Shown: positions 16,028 to 17,959 of the stretch, piece by piece
Numbering within the stretch: position 1 is the first letter of the stretch
Layout: every line of letters begins with the position of its first letter
Assembly (NCBI GenBank): GCA_903935095.1
Contig: CAIZQH010000021.1
Location: 1 to 64,000 of the forward strand
Direction: 5' to 3'
Length of the DNA: 64,000 nucleotides
Source: an uncultured Flavobacteriales bacterium
Lineage (GTDB): Bacteria; Bacteroidota; Bacteroidia; Flavobacteriales_D; Crocinitomicaceae
Made by a program: the position numbers and the translations under genes
Notes under the pieces: generated by a model
Databases searched by the model: none
Told to the model about the DNA's origin: nothing
Seen by the model: the letters and a program-made list of their open reading frames with translations, nothing else

Positions 16028-16055
16028 CATAAAAAAAGGGAATATGTTTGCTTAG

Positions 16056-16127
16056 TAGCCCTGCCAGGAATCGAACCTGGATCGAGCGTTTAGGAAACGC
16101 TAATTCTATCCGTTGAACTACAGGGCT
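16056..16127 (-). tRNA. tRNA-Arg (anticodon CCU)
   Basis: Read on the minus strand: acceptor stem AGCCCTG pairs with CAGGGCT, discriminator A, D-arm GTTCAACGGATAGAAT, anticodon stem AGCGT/ACGCT with loop TTCCTAA giving CCU, and a standard T-arm GGTTCGATTCC. CCA is not encoded. It reads AGG codons. A TAACTTTG -7 box ends 6 bases upstream, so transcription may start at or next to the mature 5' end. The region just upstream holds a decayed copy of its 5' half. Confidence 0.95.
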
Positions 16128-16133
16128 ATATGG

Positions 16134-16141
16134 CAAAGTTA
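16134..16141 (-). promoter_or_regulatory. -7 box directly upstream of tRNA-Arg
   Basis: On the minus strand the sequence is TAACTTTG, a perfect TAnnTTTG match, ending 6 bases before the tRNA. No good -33 TTG is found at 17-23 bases, so the stronger promoter may be the duplicated copy further upstream. Confidence 0.5.
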
Positions 16142-16201
16142 CGCTTATTCTATCCTCCCGGAGTCTCGGGAGAACTACAGGTCTAGGTGACAAAGTTACG
16201 C
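16141..16201 (-). pseudogene. Decayed duplicate of tRNA-Arg promoter and 5' half, with hairpin insertion
   Basis: On the minus strand this reads GCGTAACTTTG (a second TAACTTTG box) then AGACCTGTAGTTC, matching the tRNA 5' end AGCCCTGTAGTTC, then GGATAGAATAAGCG, matching GGATAGAATTAGCG. Between the two matching blocks the live tRNA has AAC while the copy has TCCCGAGACTCCGGGA, an inverted repeat. Outside the insertion about five bases differ over ~45. The copy lacks the anticodon loop and 3' half and cannot be a tRNA. It lies between the tRNA and the glycosyltransferase gene. Confidence 0.8.
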
Positions 16202-16226
16202 TATTTCTCTGCTAAAACATCCCAAA
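16192..16226 (-). promoter_or_regulatory. Candidate full promoter (duplicated copy) for tRNA-Arg
   Basis: On the minus strand TTTG (16226-16223), 23 bases, then TAACTTTG (16199-16192). It lies inside the end of the glycosyltransferase gene. A transcript from here would run through the tRNA-half remnant and its hairpin before the tRNA. Confidence 0.4.
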
Positions 16227-17370
16227 CTTGATTCGCAGCAAGGTCCCAACTGAATTGCGAAGAACGGTCGATTGCTTTTTCAGATAAATTGGAATGCAAT
16301 GTTAAATCTTCAGCCAATCGGCTCATTTTTTCGGTGATGTCATTTACGGAAAACGGATCACAATAAATGGCAGCATCACCTGCGATTTCAGGTAAACAAC
16401 TTGTATTAGCGCTGATTATTGGCACTCCACAACGCATGGCTTCGACTAGTGGAATTCCAAATCCCTCAAAGTAAGGAACATAACTGAGTGCAAAGGCTGC
16501 TCCAGTTACACGACTTAATTCATTCTTGGATAAATGTCCAAGGAAATGTATGCGTTCTTTTGTTTCAGCTGACAAATTGAATTCTTCCTGTTTCCACATA
16601 GCATTACCAACAATGACTAAATCGATTTCTGAATTGGTCAAACTGAAGGTTGAAAATGCCTCTATTAAACGCTTCACATTCTTTCGTGGATGCAAGGCCC
16701 CAACAAATAGAAAATACGGTTTGTTTTTAGAAAATACGTTTCGCGTTGAACTAATTTCTTCAGAGCACAATACACGGAATTCATCACTGATTCCGTTATA
16801 AACGACGGAAATTTTAGTGCTCGATACACCATATTTATCAATGATGTCCTTTTTGGAAAAGTTGGAAACAGTTATAATACGAGTCGCTTTTCTAGCAAAT
16901 TTTGGAAAGAAAAAGCGGTAATATTTGTTTGCGAACCAAGGGAGGTCCTCCGGGTAATGTTCGAAGTTTAAATCGTGAATGGTGGCGATTTGTGGCACAT
17001 TGGAACCTAAGCAACAAAATCCATCTGGTGTCCAAAGCAAATCAATCTCATATTTTTTAAGTGCACGTTTTAAACTCCATTCAAACCAAAAAAAATAAAT
17101 GAATGGGTGTCTTGTAGGCGGAAATAATGCCACTGTTTTGACATTGGAAGGAAATTCAAATTTCGAATCTGCTTTTCTATCAAAGAATAATACAAACGAT
17201 TGTTCCGGATGATTTCTAGTGATTCGTTTCACGAGTTCATAGGTGTAGTTACCAAAACCTTCCATTTTGGAGCCGAGAATGTTTCGTGCGTTAATTCCTA
17301 TAATCAAAATGCTAAAATTGATGGATGTAATTCGTTTTTTTTTCTTGTCCAATGGTTGTTTCTGGACCAT
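16201..17370 (-). CDS. Glycosyltransferase, GT4 (GT-B fold)
   Basis: This ~389-residue cytoplasmic enzyme transfers a sugar from a nucleotide donor, probably to a growing glycan. The N-terminal acceptor domain begins at ILIIGINARN; the C-terminal donor domain has FVGALHPRKNVKRLIEAF and the E-x7-E region EGFGIPLVEAMRCG, followed by PEIAGDAA, all typical of GT4. The start is uncertain: the GTG at 17376 or ATG at 17370 make it overlap the preceding MBL gene by about 60 bases, and a later TTG codon is possible, since GT4 proteins usually begin just before the GINARN-like strand. It follows the MBL gene on the same strand. Confidence 0.88.
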   Translation of the reverse strand: MVQKQPLDKKKKRITSINFSILIIGINARNILGSKMEGFGNYTYELVKRITRNHPEQSFVLFFDRKADSKFEFPSNVKTVALFPPTRHPFIYFFWFEWSLKRALKKYEIDLLWTPDGFCCLGSNVPQIATIHDLNFEHYPEDLPWFANKYYRFFFPKFARKATRIITVSNFSKKDIIDKYGVSSTKISVVYNGISDEFRVLCSEEISSTRNVFSKNKPYFLFVGALHPRKNVKRLIEAFSTFSLTNSEIDLVIVGNAMWKQEEFNLSAETKERIHFLGHLSKNELSRVTGAAFALSYVPYFEGFGIPLVEAMRCGVPIISANTSCLPEIAGDAAIYCDPFSVNDITEKMSRLAEDLTLHSNLSEKAIDRSSQFSWDLAANQVWDVLAEK

Positions 17371-17959
17371 GTCCACAATAAACGATGGTTTCTTCAGGAT
17401 ATTGGAAAAGAATGTTAAAAATGGAGGATTTTAAGATTTCCAAATCTCCGCCAGGCAAATCCACACGCCCAAAACTCCCTTTAAATAGGACATCTCCATT
17501 GATGATAAATTGATCCGATTTGAAATAAAACACAACGTGTCCTGGCGCATGTCCGGGTGTATGCCTCACGTGAATTTTAAATGAACCAAGTTCCAATACT
17601 TGTTCATCTTTCAATAATTGAGTTGGAACAACTTCTAGCTGATATCCTTCAAATCCGTATACATGGGCGTAACTCGCAACAGAGTTCCAAGTTACATGAT
17701 CTAAGTGGTGTAAATATGCAGGCGTGTTATAACGCTTTTGGACAAACGCTGCTCCTAAAACATGATCGATGTGTGCGTGTGTGTATAGAACAGCAAGGAC
17801 CGACAATTCATTTTCTGCAATGAAATCTGACAACTCATTTTCTTCCTCTTTGGAATAACATCCAGGGTCAAAAATAAGTGCTTCGCCTTCATCGTTTGAA
17901 ACGACATAGGTGTTTTCCTGAAAGGCATTGAATTGAAAAACGCTGACTTGTACTCCCAT
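17312..17959 (-). CDS. Metallo-beta-lactamase-fold hydrolase (glyoxalase II-like)
   Basis: The 215-residue protein carries the MBL metal motif HAHIDH (H61, H63, D65, H66), further ligands in HTPGHAPGH and NGDVLF, and the family ending CGHGPETTIGQEK. Such single-domain proteins are hydroxyacylglutathione hydrolase-like thioesterases of uncertain substrate, cytoplasmic. The full natural ending is present, so it is intact. Its 3' end overlaps the longest reading of the glycosyltransferase gene. A perfect -7 box (TAAATTTG) ends 4 bases before its ATG, so its mRNA may be leaderless. Confidence 0.93.
   Translation of the reverse strand: MGVQVSVFQFNAFQENTYVVSNDEGEALIFDPGCYSKEEENELSDFIAENELSVLAVLYTHAHIDHVLGAAFVQKRYNTPAYLHHLDHVTWNSVASYAHVYGFEGYQLEVVPTQLLKDEQVLELGSFKIHVRHTPGHAPGHVVFYFKSDQFIINGDVLFKGSFGRVDLPGGDLEILKSSIFNILFQYPEETIVYCGHGPETTIGQEKKTNYIHQF

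Follow-up and report, generated by a model that had tools for sequence, protein, structure and literature searches.

Upstream of its intact tRNA-Arg(CCT) gene, the window (the whole 64,000-nucleotide stretch from an uncultured Flavobacteriales bacterium that was analyzed here) carries a partial copy of that gene with a palindrome set into the D-loop. Such copies recur in several phyla and at various tRNA types, always at fixed places in the cloverleaf loops; palindromes of the same class are partly dispersed, and genes for small GIY-YIG nucleases occur in the same layout at other tRNA genes. With a probability of roughly 0.55, we read the unit in the window as a degenerate or non-autonomous form, lacking the nuclease, within a family of GIY-YIG elements residing in tRNA genes.

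A palindrome-bearing half-copy precedes the intact tRNA-Arg(CCT) gene

The end of the glycosyltransferase gene coincides with the edge of the copied unit, which is followed on the minus strand by the unit itself and then by tRNA-Arg(CCT) (Table 1). The unit spans 57 bases and consists of a promoter box, a short leader and the 5' half of tRNA-Arg(CCU) with the palindrome in its D-loop. As the earlier note, made from the letters of this DNA, had proposed, promoter and 5' half of the tRNA form a tandem direct repeat, in which 16213-16172 repeats 16156-16115 on the minus strand (42 nt, 81% identity, spacing 57), with an inverted repeat standing in place of AAC. The same note had the upstream copy stopping near the anticodon loop, and the copy does end just short of that loop, within the anticodon stem's 5' strand; the distance between TTTG and the box TAACTTTG, given there as 23 bases, is 24 nt. 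We take this box to be of the TAnnTTTG type, as in Bacteroidota promoters, and regard it as a putative promoter element.

Table 1. Features of the tRNA-Arg(CCT) locus, in positions of the window
Feature	Position	Strand	Evidence
Intact tRNA-Arg(CCT)	16055..16127	(-)	62.1 bits to RF00005
Second -7-like box TAACTTTG, immediately 5' of intact tRNA-Arg(CCT)	16134..16141	(-)	Sequence
GGATAGAATAAGCG, D-loop end, D-stem 3' strand and anticodon-stem start; end of copy	16142..16155	(-)	
Palindrome TCCCGAGACTCCGGGA in place of D-loop AAC	16156..16171	(-)	Same site in G372 and G015
AGACCTGTAGTTC, copy of tRNA-Arg(CCT) positions 1-13; one mismatch to intact gene	16172..16184	(-)	Sequence
-7-like box TAACTTTG, upstream copy	16191..16198	(-)	Sequence
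Upstream neighbour, group 1 / family 4 glycosyltransferase gene	16201..17376	(-)	Pfam

In TCCCGAGACTCCGGGA the stem pairs over 5-6 bp and an A.C mismatch adjoins the loop; flanking C/G and D-stem bases lengthen the hairpin to 9 predicted base pairs (-14.3 kcal/mol, z -2.2). The exact 16-mer occurs a single time in the genome, the closest other match having 2 mismatches, and an Rfam search of the window at the gathering threshold returned ordinary tRNAs only.

The unit at the same locus in related genomes

Among 60 related genomes searched, most lack a unit of the window type, and three of these (G036, G032 and G002) were seen to hold a single tRNA-Arg(CCT) gene without it. Two congeners carry the unit at the equivalent locus, where relatives have the same glycosyltransferase neighbour: G372 has one unit with the palindrome TCCCGAGACTTCGGGA, and G015 has three in tandem, two with TTCCGAAGAATCGGAA and the oldest with a truncated hairpin. 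Because these two other species carry the unit at the same locus, the structure in the window goes beyond chance. The earlier note had named a lack of the repeat in relatives as one mark of a mere relic, and a hairpin found nowhere else as speaking against a mobile palindrome; relatives do have the repeat, and palindromes of the same class (TCC...GGA) occupy this loop in further tRNA copies. Between G372 and G015, the palindrome differs at 6 of 16 positions (the whole loop and one base pair) with pairing retained, and the rest of the unit at 2 of 41. Neither the window locus nor its counterparts in G015 and G372 contain a nuclease gene.

In the empty-site genome G036, the 10-mer AATAAGCGTT lies both ahead of the box and within the tRNA, so that duplication could have used such short homology. 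These repeats flanking the unit argue against the nuclease-element reading and fit an alternative, rather unlikely in our estimate, in which, after tandem duplication at short homology, a REP-like mobile palindrome entered the dispensable copy and a nuclease played no part. Copy boundaries, which differ between lineages, point the same way, as varying boundaries would be expected from simple tandem duplication.

Half-copies with loop palindromes recur at other tRNA genes and in other phyla

Half-copies with D-loop palindromes were also found at genes for tRNA-fMet, another tRNA-Met, tRNA-Arg(UCU) and tRNA-His. Several species of the genus have tandem palindrome-bearing half-copies (1 to 5) 5' of tRNA-fMet, and the window genome possesses an fMet half-copy with a D-loop palindrome too (L202). 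A scan of named GTDB genomes for one palindrome form, in which the palindrome ends were fixed and which says nothing on whether inserts are palindromic, returned 29 contigs, nearly all adjoining tRNA-fMet and labelled as Flavobacteriales, Prolixibacteraceae (Tangfeifania diversioriginum, an isolate), Ignavibacteria, Chlorobiota or Neomarinimicrobiota. With the insert left fully free, a phylum scan at tRNA-fMet yielded TCC...GGA palindromes at the same site in 7 of 7 cases, one of them with a G.T wobble. An order-wide fMet scan with free insert gave 11 palindromic inserts out of 13, the others being one ordinary tRNA and one match away from any tRNA. For elongator-type D-loops with only TCC and GGA fixed, all 15 inserts, from 9 genomes, were palindromic, the matches adjoining tRNA-Met, tRNA-Arg(TCT) and tRNA-His; the reversed control gave 0 matches. 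The true matches of these D-loop scans adjoin intact tRNA genes. Because single inserts are short, shuffling any one of them gives a modest result (P from 0 to 0.6), and the case for palindromes rests on repetition across loci rather than on such tests.

In every fMet copy from Bacteroidota, Ignavibacteria and Neomarinimicrobiota, the palindrome stands in place of tRNA positions 12/13-18; further palindrome sites in tRNA copies are positions 38-47 and the T-loop. Mirror-image 3' copies with T-loop palindromes lie downstream of tRNA-Phe and tRNA-Asn genes. The scans cover samples of genomes, mostly metagenome assemblies, and an artefact is unlikely because independent assemblies and one isolate show the same structures.

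That the unit in the window is a single decayed duplication with an accidental hairpin and no wider meaning would accord with the uniqueness of its 16-mer in the genome, but is contradicted by the same structure at many tRNA genes in several phyla and can hardly be correct. The decayed duplication proposed earlier is partly right, but the unit is not a lone relic. The fMet arrays bear on a further alternative, namely that a hairpin-bearing half-tRNA is kept for its RNA, as a structured leader that shapes transcription or tRNA 5' processing. These arrays lie between one promoter-like site and the gene with three hairpins per unit, the predicted stems fold stably, and pairing is kept while hairpin sequence changes, including the one compensated pair between G372 and G015. 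Such a function is nonetheless improbable, given that copy number varies from 0 to 5 among close relatives, with most having none, and that the 3' copies are located past terminators.

Several variants of these arrangements were observed beside the main series. After a tRNA-Met(CAT) gene of the window genome (L060, G000:C21:422613 region), two tandem 3' copies comprise the T-arm end, the acceptor and the terminator, each preceded by CTATCCCGA...TCGGGAAGCC, in a 3'-type array without a nuclease gene. Tandem copies of terminator and T-arm with TCCCGARACTTCGGGA-type palindromes lie 3' of tRNA-His in G111 and G006 (L143 and L126). Nested palindromes, with TTCGCCGCGGCGAA inside a TCCGCC...GGA palindrome, are found in tRNA-Met half-copies at L226, L228, L229 and L231. 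A genome of another family (L096, G046:C56) shows a rearranged near-full copy 5' of tRNA-Arg(TCG) with the D-loop hairpin AGACTACGTCCGTCT, which is outside the TCC...GGA class. At L185 (G782), a complete second tRNA-fMet is intact except for a 24-nt D-loop hairpin and has GIY-YIG genes on both sides.

Palindromes of the TCC...GGA class are partly dispersed

One palindrome, TCCGCCGCGGCGGA, is present in about 20 copies in the window genome (reversed control, 0). These include D-loop sites in two half-copies before tRNA-Met and one before tRNA-fMet and T-loop sites in the 3' copies after tRNA-Phe and tRNA-Asn, and tandem-repeat DNA holds the remaining copies. A terminator hairpin of a relative has its loop replaced by TCCGCCGCGGCGGA (L128 versus L134), and G273 combines flanks of the G089 type with a different palindrome. 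The idea that a palindromic element sits in a tRNA remnant is also partly right: palindromes of this class occupy the D-loop in further tRNA copies and occur elsewhere in the genome. The window 16-mer itself is not dispersed, which counts against the nuclease-element reading.

The dispersal, extending to tandem repeats away from tRNAs and to a terminator loop, and the swapping of palindromes as blocks in G273 both favour the duplication followed by REP-like insertion introduced above. Against it, the same loop bases are replaced every time and not interrupted, and no half-copy with a native D-loop was seen upstream of the genes at the inspected loci, which were themselves picked for palindromes. 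Moreover, the RAYT-type genes of these genomes are accompanied by different palindromes, and G089 has no such gene. Mobilisation by RAYT/Y1 transposases thus found no support: palindromes at Y1 loci are of other kinds or lacking altogether, and one genome with a five-copy array has no Y1 gene. REP repeats of the GTAG and CGTC families are short dispersed palindromes, some of them in Bacteroidetes and Chlorobi (PMC3733652). The palindromes described here resemble them in being short and partly dispersed but were not seen to follow the GTAG/CGTC tag logic; they replace tRNA-copy loops, and it is other palindromes that flank the Y1/RAYT genes.

Separately, many ACCCGCNNNGCGGGT repeats, spaced 55 bp apart, surround a Y1 transposase gene at L207 (G707:C1:1350329 region). 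This locus is a candidate for a REP/RAYT system that has no relation to the tRNA palindromes. Long tandem repeats of the CACATTAGCA type with regularly spaced TCCCGAAGGGTCGGGA palindromes were observed away from tRNA genes in G002 and G366 (L138, L139 and L140). The TCCCGA...TCGGGA stems at L146 and L150 are ordinary bidirectional terminators and were set aside.

GIY-YIG nuclease genes occupy the same layout at other tRNA genes

In the window genome, tRNA-Phe and its 3' copy are separated by a gene for an 81-residue GIY-YIG protein (PF01541, E 1.5e-17), to which UPF0213 proteins are the closest relatives of solved structure. PF01541 scans and inspection revealed the same tRNA-Phe layout in further species, in tandem in G015. 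Comparable 3'-side arrangements exist at tRNA-Asn (in tandem in G758), tRNA-fMet, tRNA-Arg(TCT) and tRNA-Met; nuclease-bearing loci of this 3' type include L253, L255, L257 and L279.

Nuclease-bearing loci of the 5' type, in the orientation of the window unit, are represented by L261, L308 and L303. At L261 (tRNA-Ser, G758), the order is leader, 5' half, D-loop palindrome, nuclease gene, new leader and intact tRNA. At tRNA-Arg(TCT) in G349 (L308) and G188 (L303), two units stand in tandem, each made up of a 5' half that has a hairpin in its D-loop and a nuclease gene; the intact tRNA-Arg(TCT) follows the two units in G349, and in G188 the contig ends within the next copy.

Of 24 loci sampled from the tRNA-type sub-class of small GIY-YIG genes, 19 have a tRNA no more than about 420 bp away, compared to 0 of 16 in another small sub-class and 1 of 17 large GIY-YIG genes, rough figures in that the sub-classes were sorted by eye from sequences and loci of one array are not independent. 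Set against the nuclease-element reading are the lack of a nuclease at the window, G015 and G372 loci, the window genome's three GIY-YIG genes all lying on contigs other than the window's, and the many fMet 5' arrays, which have no nuclease in any species inspected.

Discussion

The GIY-YIG nuclease would, we infer, be the natural agent of insertion into tRNA genes. In its full form, the proposed element would split a tRNA gene within a cloverleaf loop. A GC-rich palindrome would lie where the two join, followed by the gene for a small stand-alone GIY-YIG nuclease. The far end of a 5'-type insert would supply a fresh promoter/leader and 5' half, and a 3'-type insert a 3' half and terminator, such that the intact tRNA gene would be rebuilt, one complete gene would survive, and the palindrome-capped copy would be the remainder of the displaced half. 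Units may then multiply in tandem. The nuclease presumably cuts tRNA genes and drives copying, the palindrome may mark the insertion junction or protect the copy, and the unit in the window would derive from a nuclease-bearing element. More tentatively, at somewhat less than even odds, these may be an undescribed family of minimal selfish elements that are housed in tRNA genes and span phyla, in which the nuclease breaks the loop, the palindrome caps the half and destroys the nuclease site in it, the insert rebuilds the tRNA, and nuclease-free derivatives, of which the window would hold one, spread or are maintained in tandem arrays.

The tyrT repeats of E. coli, with rtT RNA, stand in tandem next to a tRNA gene and each contain part of the tRNA. 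They differ from the window unit in having the 3' tRNA end only, and they are not known to carry a loop palindrome or a nuclease. An integrative island with a tyrosine integrase at a tRNA gene would be expected to show a direct repeat of the tRNA 3' end; in the window, promoter and 5' half are repeated, and the copies are 57 bp apart. We know of no link between mitochondrial hairpin repeats and half-tRNA copies rebuilt beside an intact gene. These mobile repeats of mitochondria (double-hairpin elements, RHE) are described as hairpins, short and rich in GC, which spread through organelle genomes (PMC2800124 and others); they are not bacterial.

A further parallel is offered by free-standing GIY-YIG homing endonucleases that lie next to tRNA genes, among them SegB of phage T6. 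SegB cuts within tRNA genes and, via short homology, causes a tRNA-segB unit to be amplified in tandem (PMC13096335). Its preferred motif is RAWTSGAAC, the other strand of which, GTTCSAWTY, corresponds to the T-loop. Shared with the loci described here are a GIY-YIG gene beside tRNA genes and tandem units of tRNA and nuclease; further likenesses are the short homology that tRNA and nuclease gene share at their ends and the T-loop cutting motif (PMC13096335). SegB belongs to a phage, whereas the loci here are chromosomal, and the description of SegB consulted here reports no cloverleaf-loop palindromes or half-tRNA copies (PMC13096335). A GIY-YIG nuclease gene is absent from the window locus and present in the same layout at other tRNA genes. 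Our literature search, with most subscription journals outside it, gave no account of the palindrome sequence, of partial tRNA repeats in Bacteroidetes or of chromosomal tRNA-linked GIY-YIG genes, and no published description of the combination of half-tRNA copy, loop palindrome and nuclease was found.

If the proposed reading is true, single-copy tRNA genes, which are among the least dispensable, would host a widespread parasite that is rendered harmless by constantly rebuilding the tRNA gene of its host. It would account for the otherwise puzzling half-tRNA arrays and palindromes that adjoin tRNA genes in numerous genomes of Bacteroidota and related groups, provide a chromosomal counterpart to phage SegB tRNA amplification, and offer a ready test system of defined nucleases and defined candidate targets.
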